A model generated the notes under the pieces. It worked only from the letters and a program-made list of their open reading frames with translations, ran no database searches and had not been told where the DNA came from. From assembly GCF_002831685.1 (NCBI RefSeq), contig NZ_CP025119.1, positions 2,192,001 to 2,256,000 on the forward strand: a stretch of DNA of 64,000 nucleotides, in the 5' to 3' direction. This document shows, in pieces, positions 29,343 through 62,548 of this stretch (position 1 is the stretch's first letter; the number at the start of each line of letters is the position of its first letter). The translations under genes and the position numbers were made by a program. The DNA is from Polaribacter sp. ALD11. GTDB taxonomy: Bacteria > Bacteroidota > Bacteroidia > Flavobacteriales > Flavobacteriaceae.

Positions 29343-30374
29343 TTACTTCTTAAACTTTAAAACTTCACTTCGTCCTTTTTTAAAGATTTTATTGCTATTT
29401 CCTTTTCCTTTTCGAAGTTCTTTTTGCTCTTCGAAAGACAATTGAATTATTTCTTGGCAATCTGTAGAACAGGTATTTTCCATTGCTTCTGAACAGGCAT
29501 CACATTGAATAAATAATAAATGACAGGCTTCGTTTGCACAATTTGTATGTTCATTACATGGTTTACCACATTGGTGACAATTAGAAACTACATCGTCTGT
29601 AATTTTTTCTGCTCTTCTATGGTCAAAAACAAAGTTTTTACCAATAAATTTATTCTCGATGCCTTCTTCTTTTACTTGACGTGTGTATTCTATAATTCCG
29701 CCTTCTAATTGAAAAACGTTTTTAAAACCTTTATGTTTGTAATATGCTGATGCTTTTTCGCAACGAATTCCGCCAGTACAATACATTAGCAAATTCTTGT
29801 CTTCTTTGTTGTCTTTCAAATCTTCTTCTATAATATCTAGAGAATCTCTAAAGGTATCTACATCTGGTGTTACAGCACCATCGAAATGACCAATTTCACT
29901 TTCGTAATGATTACGCATGTCTACACAAACCGTATCTGGGTTTGCCAACATTGCATTGAATTCTGCCGCATTTAAATGCACTCCTTTCGCGGTTACATCA
30001 AACGTTTCATCATTTAAACCATCTGCCACAATTTTGTTTCTTACTTTTACCTTGAGCTTTAAGAACGATTTATTATCGTGCTCTACAGCTACATTTAGAC
30101 GAATATCTTTTAAGAAAGAAATACTGTCTAATTGGTCTTTTAAAGCGTAAAAGTTTTCTGAAGGCACAGATAATTGTGCATTTATACCTTCATAAGAAAC
30201 GTAAATTCTACCAAGTACATCTAAAGCGTTCCATTCTAGAAATAACTTGTCTCTAAATAATTGTGGATTTTCTATCTTATAGTATTGATAGAAAGAAATT
30301 GTTAAGCGGTCTTTGCCAGCTTCGTCTATTAATGCAGCGCGTTCTATTGCGCTTAACTTATTGTACAGTTGCAT
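29343..30374 (-). CDS. trhO: tRNA uridine(34) hydroxylase, rhodanese-type
   Basis: 343 residues: an N-terminal acylphosphatase-like domain (about 20-120), a rhodanese domain (about 128-230) with active-site Cys199 in YCTGGIRCEKA, and a C-terminal cysteine-rich part (NCHQCGKPCNEH, CANEACHLLFIQCDAC), then a lysine-rich end. This is the TrhO/YceA family, which hydroxylates U34 of certain tRNAs to 5-hydroxyuridine using O2. The Cys-rich tail may bind zinc. It is monocistronic, with a -7 box 57 nt upstream and a terminator downstream. A short inverted repeat (30403-30421) lies in its leader. Confidence 0.92.
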   Translation of the reverse strand: MQLYNKLSAIERAALIDEAGKDRLTISFYQYYKIENPQLFRDKLFLEWNALDVLGRIYVSYEGINAQLSVPSENFYALKDQLDSISFLKDIRLNVAVEHDNKSFLKLKVKVRNKIVADGLNDETFDVTAKGVHLNAAEFNAMLANPDTVCVDMRNHYESEIGHFDGAVTPDVDTFRDSLDIIEEDLKDNKEDKNLLMYCTGGIRCEKASAYYKHKGFKNVFQLEGGIIEYTRQVKEEGIENKFIGKNFVFDHRRAEKITDDVVSNCHQCGKPCNEHTNCANEACHLLFIQCDACSEAMENTCSTDCQEIIQLSFEEQKELRKGKGNSNKIFKKGRSEVLKFKK

Positions 30375-30504: not shown

Positions 30505-30607
30505 ATAAGCTAGCAAACAAATTTAGCCTAGATTGAAGCATTTGTTTGAGCTCTTTTTTGCCTTTTTAGGCAGAAAAAGCTAGTGCGGAAAGCTGGAAAT
30601 AGCTTCA
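30505..30607. ncRNA. structured intergenic repeat, copy A (diverged)
   Basis: The ends AAGCTA (30507-30512) and TAGCTT (30600-30605) pair and enclose the same order of blocks as copy C: AGCAAACAA, TTTAGCC, GATTGAAG, a hairpin, then GCGGAAAGC and GGAAATAGCTTC. The hairpin (TGCCT, loop TTTT, AGGCA, flanked by T/A runs) has a different sequence but the same place as in copies B and C. It lies in the 404-nt intergenic region between trhO and asd. Direction of transcription is unknown. The remainder of that region is AT-rich with no gene I can support. Confidence 0.5.
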
Positions 30608-30778: not shown

Positions 30779-31768
30779 ATGAAAGTAGCTGTAGTTGGCG
30801 CAACTGGAATGGTTGGCACAGTAATGTTAAAAGTTTTAGAAGAACGTAATTTACCAATAACGGAATTAATTCCTGTAGCATCTGCAAGATCTGCTGGTAA
30901 AAAATTAGCATACAAAAGTAAAGAATACACCATTGTAACTTTAGAAGATGCTATAAAAATGACCCCAGATATTGCTTTATTTTCTGCTGGAGGAGATACT
31001 TCTTTAGAATGGGCTCCTAAATTTGCTGAAGCTGGTACAACAGTTATCGATAATTCTTCTGCTTGGAGAATGGATCCTACAAAGAAATTGGTGGTTCCAG
31101 AAATTAACGGAGACGTTTTAACGAAGGATGATAAAATTATAGCAAACCCTAATTGCTCTACGATTCAGTTGGTAATGGCCTTGGCTCCTTTGCACACAAA
31201 ATATAAAATGAAACGTGTAGTTATTTCTACGTATCAATCTGTTTCTGGTACGGGTGTAAAAGCAGTACAGCAACTAGATAATGAAGAGGCTGGTATTGAT
31301 GGCGAAATGGCATATCCTCATAAAATTGGTAGAAATGCATTGCCGCATTGTGATGTTTTCTTAGAAAACGGCTACACGAAAGAGGAAATGAAATTGGTAA
31401 AAGAGCCAAAGAAAATTTTACGAGATGACTCTTTTTCTGTAACAGCAACTGCGGTTAGAATTCCTACTGCTGGCGGACATTCGGAAGCTGTAAATGTGCA
31501 GTTTCATAATGATTTTGATCTGGCTGAAGTACGTCAAATATTAAATGATTCTCCAGGAATTATTGTACAAGATGATTTGGCAAATAACATTTACCCAATG
31601 CCAATTAATGCCCATAATAAAGACGAAGTATTTGTTGGACGTATTAGAAGGGATGAATCTCAAGAAAATACCTTAAATTTGTGGATTGTTGCAGATAACC
31701 TTAGAAAAGGGGCTGCTACTAACACAGTTCAAATAGCTGAATATTTAGTTGAGAATAATTTAGTTTAA
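30779..31768 (+). CDS. asd: aspartate-semialdehyde dehydrogenase
   Basis: 329 residues. The NADP-binding VVGATGMVGTVML is at the start; the active-site cysteine is Cys126 in IANPNCSTIQ, and GGHSEAV (about residue 237) provides the catalytic His region. It makes aspartate semialdehyde for lysine/diaminopimelate, methionine and threonine, in the cytoplasm. A CATCTTTG sequence (30750-30757, one mismatch to the -7 consensus) after a T-run lies 21 nt before the ATG; an almost identical T8-AGCATCTTT string precedes the metallophosphoesterase pseudogene. It is followed 7 nt later by a reductase gene, probably co-transcribed. Confidence 0.95.
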   Translation: MKVAVVGATGMVGTVMLKVLEERNLPITELIPVASARSAGKKLAYKSKEYTIVTLEDAIKMTPDIALFSAGGDTSLEWAPKFAEAGTTVIDNSSAWRMDPTKKLVVPEINGDVLTKDDKIIANPNCSTIQLVMALAPLHTKYKMKRVVISTYQSVSGTGVKAVQQLDNEEAGIDGEMAYPHKIGRNALPHCDVFLENGYTKEEMKLVKEPKKILRDDSFSVTATAVRIPTAGGHSEAVNVQFHNDFDLAEVRQILNDSPGIIVQDDLANNIYPMPINAHNKDEVFVGRIRRDESQENTLNLWIVADNLRKGAATNTVQIAEYLVENNLV

Positions 31769-46922: not shown

Positions 46923-46996
46923 TGGAGGTGTCTAGCGGATTCGAACCGCTGTACATGGTTTTGCAAACCATTGCCTAGCCACTCGGCCAAGACACC
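46923..46996 (-). tRNA. tRNA-Cys (anticodon GCA), 3' CCA encoded
   Basis: The minus strand folds as a cloverleaf: acceptor GGTGTCT/AGACACC, D-arm GGCCGAGTGGCTAGGCA, anticodon arm ATGGTTTGCAAAACCAT with GCA, and T-arm CAGCGGTTCGAATCCGCTA with the invariant TTCGAAT. The discriminator base is U, the standard identity element for cysteine, and CCA is present in the DNA. It is 95 nt downstream of folB and stands with its own terminator. Confidence 0.97.
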
Positions 46997-47448: not shown

Positions 47449-47880
47449 TTATTCTTCTTTATTTGAAATACTTTCAATTTTTTCCCACATTTTATCTGAG
47501 TTTAACCTAAAAGATCCTTTAAACTCTAAACTCCATTCGCTAGGTTCTATAATCGATAAAAATAATTCTTCTTTTTTATTTATATATAAGTGATATGTTT
47601 CGCCAATAATAGGCTCAAAACCAAATTTCGCATTGTACAACATGTCATTGTATTGAAATTTCTCCATCAATAGCTCATACTCTTTTCTTACTTCTTCAAA
47701 CTTCCCTTTGAGTATTTTATTTGTACGTCTTACGCCATCTGCCGTCCAAGTTGCAGTATTTGTAGGTTTAATTACTGGCGAACTCGCAGAGGTCCCGTAG
47801 GGTTTTAAAGCAGCGTCATATTTTTGTGTTTCTTCATTAAAAACAACTAAATCTGGCTTTTTTTCTGCGTCTTTCTTCAT
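47449..47880 (-). CDS. DUF2452 family protein
   Basis: 143 residues, soluble. The start KKPDLVVFNEETQKYDAALKPYGT and the middle EYELLMEKFQYNDMLYNAKFGFEPIIGETYHLYINK match what I recall of DUF2452, a bacterial family of unknown function with a small beta-rich core (SLIEPSEW...FKGSFRLNSDKMWE). No catalytic motif is evident. It is the first gene of a pair with folB. Its promoter is a TAATTTTG box only 4 nt before ATG. Confidence 0.7.
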   Translation of the reverse strand: MKKDAEKKPDLVVFNEETQKYDAALKPYGTSASSPVIKPTNTATWTADGVRRTNKILKGKFEEVRKEYELLMEKFQYNDMLYNAKFGFEPIIGETYHLYINKKEELFLSIIEPSEWSLEFKGSFRLNSDKMWEKIESISNKEE

Positions 47881-47935: not shown

Positions 47936-48060
47936 TAGCAAGTATGCCCGCGTTAAGGATTGAAACGGCATCCTTTTTATTTTTTTTATAAATAAAAAGA
48001 TATAGTGAAAAGCCTGACCAAGCTTTTTTGCTTGGTAACGCCCAAGAACTGTAAATGCTA
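47936..48060. ncRNA. structured intergenic repeat, copy B (longest)
   Basis: Nested pairings can be drawn: outer TAGCA/TGCTA (47936-47940, 48056-48060), GCGTTA/TAACGC (47950-47955, 48036-48041), GGAT/ATCC (47957-47960, 47970-47973), the hairpin CTTTTTATT/AATAAAAAG (47973-47981, 47991-47999), and an extra hairpin CCAAGC/GCTTGG (about 48018-48035). The linear blocks ATTGAAACGGCATCC and GATATAGTGAAAAGC match copy C. It lies between the DUF2452 and zinc-ribbon genes. It may belong to a known flavobacterial RNA class such as Flavo-1, which I cannot verify here. Confidence 0.6.
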
Positions 48061-48144: not shown

Positions 48145-48360
48145 TTAACTCGTAAAAAAGTCGAAAACATTGCTAATTCCGCTTGTTTTGGTTTTATAGA
48201 ATTCTGTATAGGTACAACGTGTACAAGTTACACTAGTAAATTTCTGATTTTGAATATCGAAAATCTTTGATAAGGTTCCGCCAGTTGCTCGCATTTCTCC
48301 TAACTTATAGGTTTTAGAGTCGCATTTCGGACACGTGTAATTTCTAATTTGATCGCTCAT
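48145..48360 (-). CDS. zinc-ribbon nucleic-acid-binding protein (DUF2082-like)
   Basis: 71 residues from the ATG at 48360 (MSDQIRNYTCPKC); a longer start would add 21 residues with no family similarity. The metal ligands are Cys10, Cys13, Cys46 and Cys49 (CPKC and CTRC). The middle LGEMRATGGTLSKIFDIQNQKF and the end VTCTRCTYTEFYK.. match the family of small zinc-ribbon proteins annotated as DUF2082. A nucleic-acid role is assumed, not shown. Its promoter region is shared with the divergent glnS gene. Confidence 0.85.
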   Translation of the reverse strand: MSDQIRNYTCPKCDSKTYKLGEMRATGGTLSKIFDIQNQKFTSVTCTRCTYTEFYKTKTSGISNVFDFFTS

Positions 48361-48437
48361 AGGAAATAGTGTTTGTTTATTAGTTGCTGAATTTACAATT
48401 TTGTTACAAACTCTTAATACCAATGAAGTATTTTATG

Positions 48438-60077: not shown

Positions 60078-60884
60078 ATGAAAGACGAATTGAAAATAAT
60101 TGGAATTCAGGCTGCTTTGGTTTGGGAAAATCCTGCCCAAAACATTGCCTTTTTCGAGTCGAAAATAAAGACTTTAGAAAATGAGGTAGATTTAATTGTA
60201 CTCCCAGAAATGTTTACCACAGGTTTTACAATGAACCCAGAAAAAATTGCTGAAGAAATGGATGGCTTGTCTGTTGCCTGGATGCAAAGAATAGCCAAAG
60301 AAAAACAGACTGCTATTTGTGGCAGTTTGGTAATAAAAGAACCTTTCGACAGCGTTCAAGGAGACAAATTTTACAATCGTTTGGTTTTTGTACATCCAAC
60401 CGGAGAAATAGAAACCTATAATAAAAGACATTCTTTTACGTTGGCTAATGAAGACAAAGTGTATACTTCTGGTGCTGAAAAACTATTAATCGAATACAGA
60501 GGATGGAAAATATGTCCGTTAATTTGTTACGATTTGCGTTTTCCTGTTTGGGCTAGAAATACAGAAAACTACGATCTTCTTATTTTTATGGCTAATTGGC
60601 CAATTGCAAGAGTAAAAGCTTGGGATACGCTTTTAAAAGCACGAGCAATTGAAAACATGAGTTATGTAGTGGGCGTAAATAGAACAGGAACAGATTTTAA
60701 TAACTATGAGTATTCTGGAAATTCTTTAATTATTGATTATTTAGGGGAAGAACTTTCTAATTTAGATAAAAATGAAGTAGGATTTATTTCTGCTAGTTTG
60801 TCTAAAGAGGAACTAAAACAAACAAGAAATAAACTTGGATTTCTAAATGATAGAGATTCGTTTAAAATTGAAAATAATGATTAG
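60078..60884 (+). CDS. carbon-nitrogen hydrolase (omega-amidase-like, YafV family)
   Basis: 268 residues from the ATG at 60078 (MKDELKIIGIQAALVW); an upstream in-frame start would overlap the divergent gene. The nitrilase triad is Glu44 (LPEMFTTGF), Lys116 (NKRHSF) and Cys150 (LICYDLRFP). It resembles YafV/Nit2-type omega-amidases that release ammonia from alpha-ketoglutaramate or alpha-ketosuccinamate, products of transaminases. Cytoplasmic. Its last 8 nt overlap the start of the GNAT gene, so they are co-translated. Confidence 0.9.
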   Translation: MKDELKIIGIQAALVWENPAQNIAFFESKIKTLENEVDLIVLPEMFTTGFTMNPEKIAEEMDGLSVAWMQRIAKEKQTAICGSLVIKEPFDSVQGDKFYNRLVFVHPTGEIETYNKRHSFTLANEDKVYTSGAEKLLIEYRGWKICPLICYDLRFPVWARNTENYDLLIFMANWPIARVKAWDTLLKARAIENMSYVVGVNRTGTDFNNYEYSGNSLIIDYLGEELSNLDKNEVGFISASLSKEELKQTRNKLGFLNDRDSFKIENND

Positions 60885-61392
60885 AAAGGTTAAAATTACT
60901 GATATTGATGAAGTCTTTAAACTTTACAAGGTAGCTTCTAATTATCAGAAAGAAAAGAAAACGGTAGTTGTTTGGCCAGATTTTGATAGAGAAATGGTTG
61001 CCAAAGAAATTCTAGAAAAGAGACAGTTTAAATTTTTAATTAATGATGAAGTTGCTTGTATTTGGGCAATTACTTTTTCTGATGAACAAATTTGGGGAGA
61101 AAAGAATAAGGACAGCGCAGTATACATTCATAGAATTGCTACGAACCCTAGTTTTAGAGGTAATAATTATATTTATAAAATTGTTAAATGGGCAAAAGGA
61201 TTTGCTCAAAAAAAGGGGATTCAATTTATTAGACTAGATACTTTGGGTGAAAACCATAAACTTATTGAGCATTATAAAAATGCAGGTTTTAATTTTTTAG
61301 GTATCTTTAATTTAAAAGACACATCTAATTTACCAGAGCATTATAAAAAAGCACCTGTGTGTCTTTTTGAAATAGACTTAGATAAAAACTAG
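60877..61392 (+). CDS. GNAT family N-acetyltransferase
   Basis: 171 residues from the ATG at 60877 (MIRKVKITDIDEVFKLY). The acetyl-CoA-binding region is AVYIHRIATNPSFRGNNYIYKIVKWA (R/Q-x-x-G-x variant, RGNNYIYK) and the C-terminal IRLDTLGENHKLIEHYKNAGF block is the GNAT beta-alpha-beta ending. The substrate is unknown; coupling to the omega-amidase suggests amino-acid or amine chemistry. A terminator follows immediately. Confidence 0.85.
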   Translation: MIRKVKITDIDEVFKLYKVASNYQKEKKTVVVWPDFDREMVAKEILEKRQFKFLINDEVACIWAITFSDEQIWGEKNKDSAVYIHRIATNPSFRGNNYIYKIVKWAKGFAQKKGIQFIRLDTLGENHKLIEHYKNAGFNFLGIFNLKDTSNLPEHYKKAPVCLFEIDLDKN

Positions 61393-61462: not shown

Positions 61463-61552
61463 ATAAGCTAGCAAACAAGTTTAGCCCTGATTGAAGTGAC
61501 ATCCTTTTTGTTTTTCACAAAAAGATATAACGGAAAGCAGGAAATAGCTTCT
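61463..61552. ncRNA. structured intergenic repeat, copy C
   Basis: AAGCTA (61465-61470) pairs with TAGCTT (61545-61550), CCTG with CAGG, GAT with ATC, and CTTTTTGT with ACAAAAAG (61504-61511, 61517-61524) as a terminal hairpin with a TTTTC loop. The blocks TGATTGAAGTGACATCC and GATATAACGGAAAGCAGG are those shared with copies A and B. It lies between convergent genes, 26 nt after the GNAT terminator. Confidence 0.6.
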
Positions 61553-61567
61553 ATACCCAAAAACTAT

Positions 61568-62548
61568 TTAAGCTGGTAACATCCATTTAAAATTAAACTT
61601 TGTGTCTGGAATTACAATTCTTTCTGTAATTCTGTACATTCTGTCTGGAAGTTTCATTAAATAATCTCTTGCTTTTTCTGCTTCTGGTGTAAGATTGGTA
61701 ATTTTATCTATTTCCCAAGCTGCATTTAGTTTCTTTATTATGTCTACATAATCGAAACCTGTATATACACCTATTCTTTGTGCTACTGATGAAAAATCGT
61801 CAAACAAGGTACCTTTTGCAGCATACGATTCTCTTAAGTGTAATGCTGGCATTACAATTTTGTGTTTCATCATGTGTTGAAAAGCCAACATCATTTCACT
61901 AGGATCTATCTTAAAAATTTCTCTTACAAACTCTGTATATGCTTGGTGATGACGCATTTCATCTCCTGCAATAATTTTAGACATTTTCGCCAATGCTTTA
62001 TGTCCTTTTTTACGTGCAATTTTTGCTACATTGTTATGAGAAACATAGGTTGCTAATTCTTGAAAACTTGTGTAGACAAAGTTTTTGTATGGATCTGTTG
62101 ATGTACCAATATCGAAACCATCTGAAATTAAATGCTGTGTTGTAATTTCTACTTCACGCATGTTTACACGACCAGATAAATACAAATATTTATTTAAAAC
62201 GTCTCCATGTCTGTTTTCTTCTGCCGTCCAAGTTCTTACCCATCTTGCCCAACCATTATCTGGGTCTTGGCTTACACCATCTAAATCTAATAACCAAGAT
62301 TCATAGGTTGGTAAAGCTTCTTCCGTAATTGTATCTCCTACTAAAACCACCCAAAAATCGTCATGCAGTTCTTTAGATAATTCTCTAATTTCTTCTACTT
62401 CTGTAATAAAAGAATCTTTTTGAGAATTTGGAAGAAAATCTGTTGGTTGCCAAATTTTCTCTGCAGGAATTAAGTACTTGTCCATAAAACGGTCCATACT
62501 TTTTTCTAGCGTTAACATTACTTCTTTTCTGATATTATATATAGACAT
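61568..62548 (-). CDS. acyl-ACP desaturase (soluble di-iron)
   Basis: 326 residues, soluble ferritin-like di-iron enzyme (FA_desaturase_2 family). Iron ligands are visible in AEENRHG (Glu111, His114), QELATYVSHNN (Glu164) and DEMRHHQ (Glu197, His200). It introduces a double bond (probably delta-9) into a fatty acyl-ACP with reduced ferredoxin, raising membrane fluidity. It starts 6 nt downstream of the acyltransferase gene, so the two form a membrane-lipid operon. The PaaE-like reductase at 31.8 kb is a conceivable electron donor, but that is speculation. Confidence 0.92.
   Translation of the reverse strand: MSIYNIRKEVMLTLEKSMDRFMDKYLIPAEKIWQPTDFLPNSQKDSFITEVEEIRELSKELHDDFWVVLVGDTITEEALPTYESWLLDLDGVSQDPDNGWARWVRTWTAEENRHGDVLNKYLYLSGRVNMREVEITTQHLISDGFDIGTSTDPYKNFVYTSFQELATYVSHNNVAKIARKKGHKALAKMSKIIAGDEMRHHQAYTEFVREIFKIDPSEMMLAFQHMMKHKIVMPALHLRESYAAKGTLFDDFSSVAQRIGVYTGFDYVDIIKKLNAAWEIDKITNLTPEAEKARDYLMKLPDRMYRITERIVIPDTKFNFKWMLPA

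Follow-up and report, generated by a model that had tools for sequence, protein, structure and literature searches.

Three intergenic sites in a 64,000-nucleotide stretch of the Polaribacter sp. ALD11 genome (the window) are, with near certainty, copies of Flavo-1 (RF01705), a known family. The family has three architectures, many of its positions are common to related species, and individual sites swap their distal module and terminal hairpin without a change of position. The copies resemble neither classical small-RNA genes nor elements that jump freely. We give an even chance to the reading that Flavo-1 is an old dispersed intergenic element that is now fixed beside genes, is selected for a single-strand fold and acts in cis at gene ends.

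Flavo-1 copies and their three architectures

The Rfam covariance model RF01705 matches all three window sites on the + strand above its gathering score of 42 bits, with E-values of 2.6e-14 (copy C), 8.1e-12 (copy B) and 2.3e-06 (copy A). A preliminary description of this DNA had recognised the same ordered blocks at the three sites and guessed at Flavo-1; the guess was right, and the blocks belong to one family far above chance. The copies, their neighbouring genes and a nearby tRNA gene are located in the window as follows.

61471..61551, + strand: copy C, type I Flavo-1 (RF01705 73.6 bits at 61479-61548)
60847..61392, + strand: GNAT acetyltransferase gene, 5' of copy C (PF00583)
61568..62548, - strand: FA_desaturase_2 gene (PF03405, E 2.4e-132)
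47950..48042, + strand: copy B, type II Flavo-1 with a three-way junction (RF01705 64.5 bits at 47942-48023)
47449..47880, - strand: DUF2452 gene, 5' of copy B on the opposite strand (PF10504)
48145..48423, - strand: Zn-ribbon (DUF2082) gene, 3' of copy B on the opposite strand (PF09855)
46926..46996, - strand: tRNA gene (62.6 bits)
30513..30606, + strand: copy A, type III Flavo-1 (RF01705 44.8 bits at 30521-30603)
29343..30374, - strand: Rhodanese/UPF0176 gene, 5' of copy A (PF17773, PF12368, PF00581)
30779..31768, + strand: semialdehyde dehydrogenase gene, 3' of copy A (PF02774/PF01118)

Copy C consists of the lead GCAAACAAG, TAGCC, the core CTGATTGAA..GAAAGCAGG, a terminal hairpin CTTTTTG/CAAAAAG and the closing AATAGCTTC. 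Its ends were set by the 5' consensus of 82 and the 3' consensus of 75 type I/III copies, and its pairs were counted on alignment A2. It sits between the convergent GNAT acetyltransferase and FA_desaturase_2 genes, and its 3' end lies 16 bases from the stop codon of the desaturase, whose nearest named relative is found in Polaribacter sp. IC073 (99% amino-acid identity). In copy B, stem P1 pairs 47950-47954 with 48037-48041, P2 spans 47956-48015, and P3 pairs ACCAAGC (48017-48023) with GCTTGGT (48030-48036); P1 and P2 were counted on alignment A1, and P3 was taken from the listed variants. Copy A contains the ends and core of type I, with the distal module TTTGTTTGAGCTC..GCTAGTG and a hairpin TGCC/GGCA (pair counts on alignment A3).

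In the whole genome, RF01705 gave at least 60 matches at E <= 0.001 with 150 of 969 candidates scored, at least 45 of them above the gathering score. Half-site patterns added five copies, bringing the total to about 65; in four of them the loop is very long, and in the fifth the left part is altered. These supply the further copies to which the preliminary description had looked for support. Matches were also found in at least 64 of the 78 genus genomes and at least 17 of 118 in a phylum sample, as well as in 33 of 59 relatives, patchily outside the genus. Copy number within the genus runs from 0 upward; these copy counts are lower bounds, as at most 52 (genus) and 36 (phylum sample) candidates were scored per genome. 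The range lies within Bacteroidota, as for the known motif, and the closest named genomes are Polaribacter.

The Flavo-1 RNA motif comes from Weinberg et al. 2010 (PMC2864571) and is typed as sRNA in Rfam. In the parts available to us, a 2022 review (PMC9029176) places it among the most abundant sRNA families and leaves its function blank, and a Flavobacterium psychrophilum transcriptome study (PMC9723704) describes its matches as indistinctly sense or antisense, many of them outside transcribed regions. The accessible parts of these three papers give no function for Flavo-1, do not describe its three architectures or any in-place exchange (an earlier description in supplements is possible), and contain nothing on conservation of position or gene-end orientation. 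To the extent of our searches, type II with its three-way junction, the inference of the working strand, the positions common to species and the swapping of modules in place are new.

Architectures were defined on 176 copies with flanks from three genomes, namely 51 of the 60 ALD11 matches and the remainder from two relatives, G063 and G099. By pattern, 86 copies are type II, 43 type III and 39 type I, and 8 are unclassified. Types I and III have common ends (GCAAACAAG..TAGCC and GGAAATAGCTTC) and a common core (GATTGAA..GAAAGC) and differ in the distal module. Type II combines the same core with an outer stem P1 (GCGTTA/TAACGC). Many copies of this type also have a third hairpin, P3 (ACC..GGT), longer versions of which vary by locus yet stay complementary. 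P1 is Watson-Crick in 352 of 375 cells, where 1000 shuffles average 334 and never exceed 344; the count covers the copies whose right-hand site was found (75 of 90 parsed), with two of the five bases fixed by the search pattern itself. The window copies and RF01705 have the same P2 core sequence and structure; the 76-position Rfam model is without the P1 and P3 of type II and does not split off the distal module of type III.

The stems GCGTTA/TAACGC and CCAAGC/GCTTGG and the terminal hairpins are present as the preliminary description had them. Its outer stems did not generalise: AGCTA, the basis of the AAGCTA/TAGCTT stem of copies A and C, lies upstream of only 11 of 82 type I/III copies, and the TAGCA/TGCTA stem of copy B has no counterpart in 81 type II copies, where nothing is conserved 5' of GCGTTA except a T (directly before it in 69%). 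A hammerhead and a kink-turn were considered and dropped because the CUG of the core can be replaced by GGG, GCG or AGG.

Fold, strand and constraint

Covariation supports the fold in each of the three architectures. With structures set by hand, 99.4% of cells are paired in A1 (36 type II copies), 99.5% in A2 (22 type I copies) and 98.3% in A3 (27 type III copies), with two-sided changes in 9, 4 and 7 pairs, respectively. These rows represent 36 of 43, 22 of 25 and 27 of 29 eligible copies, the rest being excluded by hand with no fixed rule; copies from G099 or with very long loops are outside all three alignments. None of 500 shuffles reached the covariation score in A1, A2 or A3, and the score drops in each when partners are slid. 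Covariation, which the preliminary description had named as a check, thus exceeds that of the shuffles, although these overstate significance because the copies are related. The weak point of A2 is that its number of two-sided-change pairs was matched in 155 of 500 shuffles and its number of pair types in 500 of 500; that of A1 is that only one of five P1 pairs shows two-sided change, in 2 cells. One A1 row (L243) is misaligned at the 3' end, and one inner pair of A3 has 8 of 27 cells unpaired, two registers being mixed.

The type of non-Watson-Crick pair suggests which strand folds. Five core pairs in 167 of the 176 copies comprise 785 Watson-Crick, 15 G-U, 0 A-C and 35 other cells, of which 24 are G-A, a register effect in a shorter-loop variant of type III. 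An A-C pair on the strand of the Rfam model is a G-U pair on the opposite strand, so 15 G-U versus 0 A-C suggests that the fold is selected on Rfam's strand as a single strand. In this tally orthologues are counted more than once, and 13 of the 15 G-U cells are type II while one of the remaining two is in a copy with an insertion; the strand of types I and III is therefore hardly probed by this tally. Terminal hairpins are nearly devoid of G-U (1067 Watson-Crick, 4 G-U, 1 A-C and 60 other cells in 172 copies). No clear replication-strand bias was seen in the two halves of the ALD11 genome (16+/13- and 18+/13-), of G063 (20+/16- and 17+/22-) or of G099 (14+/12- and 10+/23-), with the origin position assumed.

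Many Flavo-1 positions are common to species. G063 and G099, a species pair (91% over 3.8 kb at copy C's site), have 75 and 59 copies by the model, and were compared over stretches chosen around elements that cover most of these copies; the sharing is therefore a lower bound from which an absence rate is not derivable. Both flanks of 43 of the 75 G063 matches fall on the compared G099 stretches, and 39 of these 43 sites hold a single G099 match (23 II/II, 8 III/III, 5 I/I, 1 I/III and 2 with an unclassified copy). From ALD11, 29 loci were mapped on G063 and 23 on G099, with a match between the flanks in 24 and 21, respectively. At least 31 of 51 ALD11 loci thus have a model match between the same flanks in G063 or G099; some of these gaps are 1-2 kb, so the match there need not be the same element. 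Matches at shared loci are oriented as the ALD11 copy, with the exception of L016, where two matches lie between the flanks, one each way.

No clean empty site was seen among the 43 orthologous G063/G099 comparisons listed, with five long-gap pairs left unaligned. At the site of G063 2719188 the element is missing together with about 280 bases. Two apparent absences from G063 (L010 and L077) are long-loop copies, and other sequence of 0.5-2 kb lies between the flanks of L060 in G063 and of L075 and L022 in G099; this check covered loci other than L068 (both genomes) and L075 (G063).

Between these two species the core changes slowly and mostly keeps its pairing. At 37 of the 43 orthologous sites, parsed for five pairs each, 158 core pairs are unchanged Watson-Crick and 8 are unchanged others. 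Two-sided Watson-Crick replacements number 10, including 3 at two type-changing loci; there are also 3 changes to or from G-U and 1 break in an intact copy, and a single insertion-carrying copy accounts for 5 altered cells (4 non-pairs and 1 G-U). Over 27 pairs with alignable flanks, divergence is 4.0% in the core versus 14.4% in the flanks, the core being slower in 19, faster in 3 and equal in 5; without the alignable-flank filter the values are 6.2% and 25.5%. The pairing-preserving changes, the slow core and the covariation in A1-A3 bear out the earlier claim of selection on secondary structure. Concerted homogenisation of the arms is not supported for G063 and G099: the orthologue is nearest in 22 of 27 cases and a paralogue strictly nearer in 8 of 27, and the mean arm distance by type is 0.031-0.036 for orthologues versus 0.122-0.135 for non-orthologues. 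Between ALD11 and G063, the orthologue is nearest in only 7 of 13 cases and a paralogue from the ALD11 genome strictly nearer in 5 of 13.

Gene ends, mobility and exchange in place

Flavo-1 copies are predominantly intergenic (162 of 171 outside ORFs of at least 80 aa, 9 inside) and tend to run into the 3' end of an opposite-strand gene. For all types, the 3' neighbour is on the opposite strand in 33 of 43 copies in ALD11 (G000), 50 of 71 in G063 and 38 of 48 in G099, where intergenic base counts give an expectation of 47.8%; the 3' end is within 30 nt of the opposite-strand stop codon in 17 of 43, 23 of 71 and 18 of 48. For types I and III, the opposite-strand counts are 19 of 24, 29 of 34 and 18 of 19 in the same genomes; of these, 11, 15 and 12 have their 3' end no more than 30 nt from the stop codon concerned. 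For type II taken separately the bias is not significant (12 of 17, 19 of 33 and 18 of 27; p 0.087, 0.3 and 0.055). Genes were called with a simple ORF finder (at least 80 aa), and the three genomes share loci, so these counts are not independent. Divergent intergenic regions are avoided (9 of 162 copies vs 158 of 744 control gaps), and copy A, between divergent genes, is in the rarest context.

TANNTTTG is the Bacteroidota -7 motif. It was the sole promoter motif examined, and within 75 nt upstream it is found in sense in 8 of 168 copies vs 12.7 in shuffles, and on the antisense strand in 19 of 168. By eye, the A1-A3 consensus contains no intrinsic terminator, that is, no GC-rich hairpin followed by a T run. 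The preliminary description had proposed either a dispersed small RNA or a structured mobile element. The small RNA is disfavoured by the lack of enrichment of this motif and by the 3' gene usually being on the opposite strand. For the mobile element, dispersal and patchy copy number speak in favour, while the many shared positions and the lack of a clean empty site in the 43 comparisons speak against.

Mobilisation by a RAYT transposase was tried as an explanation and rejected: in a search over 78 genus genomes, Y1/RAYT (PF01797) matches were found in 39 and none in the ALD11 genome. There are also none in the high-copy genomes G001, G008, G021, G029 and G098; other high-copy genomes, e.g. 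G034, G060, G061, G063 and G099, have 1 to 4. No autonomous parent element was found among 8 apparent solo halves inspected. Seven of these prove to be complete copies whose loop holds a second repeat, whose right arm has an insert or whose left part is altered, and in the remaining one (L226, 2550906) the right half is apparently missing and the copy runs into a second one. Six further G063 half pairs are ~155 nt apart by coordinates.

The change that is observed lies inside the element, whose distal module and terminal hairpin are replaced without a change of position. At copy C's site, the window carries type I and IC073 type III, with 89% identity over 2.5 kb, while G099 carries type I with an insert and G063 type III. 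Window/IC073 and G099/G063 are sister pairs with bootstrap 100 in a desaturase gene tree, which requires at least 6 I/III changes among 16 bearers (one gene, with 14 of 39 inner branches unresolved). Types I and III thus swap at one site inside the same outer sequence. By eye, the 42 distinct rows at this site comprise 7 type I, 9 type III, 5 degenerate and 21 without the element; any function there is therefore dispensable, 26 of the 42 being degenerate or empty. The type differs in at least one relative at 5 of 15 shared ALD11 type I/III loci (L001, L004, L006, L012 and L074), L006 lying in a 1.8-kb gap and L016 being ambiguous; it changes at 0 of 16 shared type II loci. Terminal hairpins are swapped whole as well: at one locus, matched by eye (ALD11 L352, G063 2218983 and G099 3372248), the three species carry three different hairpins.

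Several other repeats were seen at Flavo-1 sites. A second dispersed repeat of the GTCATTGCGAGGAACGAAGCAATCT type lies within the terminal loop of ALD11 L350, L351, L352 and L354 and G063 L210 and L226; its pattern occurs 156 times in the about 2 Mb of G063/G099 sequence examined, 150 of them outside model matches. A third (..TATCGAGAAC..) makes up the loop of 12 of the 176 copies, among them G063 1703586, 1939862 and 3601335, G099 3372248 and 3829313, and ALD11 L002 and L026, and 25 of its 34 occurrences in the examined G063/G099 sequence are outside model matches. Three loci (G099 2836625, G063 1855052 and G063 2283484) have similar inserts of about 40 nt, ..GTTGAATGCT..GCATTT or nearly so, at the same core point, GATT^GAA. 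Four loci (G099 1902534, G099 3772152, the G060 desaturase-site copy L092 and G063 990809, L249) have another short insert, CTTTCGACTTCG.TCAAGATAAA or nearly so, at roughly one core position in the right arm. At the desaturase site of G021 (L089) and G001 (L090), where Flavo-1 is absent, part of the gap is taken up by a different palindromic repeat (CGTGTAATTG..CAATTACACG); the same holds in part for G013 (L085).

Possible roles and known systems

In the reading we favour, many Polaribacter copies would have become fixed beside particular genes and been kept by selection on the single-strand fold of the annotated strand, which covariation, slow core divergence and the G-U/A-C asymmetry support. 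Flavo-1 would act in cis at gene ends: the folded strand may arise where transcription or strand separation enters the 3' end of the opposite-strand neighbour, and may mark or block that gene-end boundary. A factor might recognise the core and its G-A-rich internal loops. The terminal hairpin would mainly need to close the stem, so that it could drift, take in other repeats and be replaced through short-homology exchange with other copies. Our confidence in a function in cis at gene ends is moderate at best. Copy A is off the rule, and the gene-end bias could be an insertion preference instead of function. Also to be weighed against this reading are the type II copies, which taken separately have no significant bias, the genus members with 0 copies, the many empty or degenerate rows at copy C's site, the ALD11 paralogues that are nearer than the G063 orthologue, and the indistinct strand of Flavo-1 matches in the F. 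psychrophilum transcriptome.

It is rather unlikely that Flavo-1 is a selfish REP- or MITE-like repeat, moved by a transposase in trans and without host function, for which gene ends are simply harmless places. The dispersed, intergenic, palindromic copies with their patchy distribution, the avoidance of divergent regions and the degenerate copies at copy C's site all fit such a repeat. Against it, many positions are common to species, no clean empty site was seen in the 43 comparisons, and the core is slower than its flanks, with most changes keeping the pairing. Neither the transposase, in ALD11 and the five high-copy genomes named above, nor an autonomous parent among the half-copies inspected was found. 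We regard as improbable another view, in which the folded single DNA strand, like attC or REP hairpins, serves a putative recombinase or polymerase as the substrate for swapping distal modules between copies. It draws on the recurrent switching between types I and III inside the same outer sequence, the near lack of G-U in terminal hairpins, the similar inserts at the same two core points in several loci, and copies often antisense to the neighbouring gene with the tested promoter motif missing. Against it, short-homology recombination could swap modules without a dedicated enzyme, no candidate enzyme was identified, and exchange is not constant, because G063/G099 orthologue arms are distinct from paralogues. 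Equally a long shot is its fuller form, a DNA-level cassette system with a gene-end-anchored base whose distal hairpin module a putative enzyme replaces in place; if true, dozens of anchored sites in the genome bear heads that can be interchanged.

The remaining alternatives place the function in RNA. A role in terminating transcription of the opposite-strand gene or in stabilising the 3' end of its mRNA, in which the working RNA would be the reverse complement of Rfam's strand, is favoured by the copies ending within 30 nt of a stop codon and by a separate terminator-like hairpin that, by eye, is often present beyond the element at copy C's site, as this would put the element inside the 3' UTR of the opposite-strand gene. 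The G-U versus A-C count of 15 to 0 favours the other strand (types I/III giving only 2 of the 15) and the consensus lacks a GC-rich hairpin with a T run, which makes this role very unlikely. For a family of trans-acting small RNA genes speak the Rfam type and the abundance of Flavo-1 among sRNA families in the review cited above. With about 65 diverged copies, the promoter motif at 8 of 168 where 12.7 are expected, and no consistent strand or expression in the part of the transcriptome study available to us, we give this family hardly any credence.

Flavo-1 is thus reframed as a family with three architectures, many fixed sites, a likely working strand, an orientation at gene ends and a replaceable inner module. 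These results indicate the sites and the strand at which experiments should be aimed, and Flavo-1 provides a natural case for studying how dispersed repeats exchange hairpin modules in place.

REP/BIME palindromes, which are associated with RAYT transposases, are dispersed extragenic hairpins, many of them at gene 3' ends. Flavo-1 copies are also dispersed extragenic hairpins often at gene 3' ends, but they are longer (69-150 nt in G063 by model), have conserved internal loops, and in ALD11 occur in a genome without a Y1 transposase match. Integron attC sites have a conserved single-strand fold, unpaired features and a variable terminal hairpin, and Flavo-1 resembles them in all three. For STAXI, found in the same screen as Flavo-1, the authors discussed a role as single-stranded DNA and then favoured RNA, according to the part of that paper available to us (PMC2864571). 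STAXI are pseudoknot repeats near DNA-handling genes, and we claim no sequence relation between them and Flavo-1.
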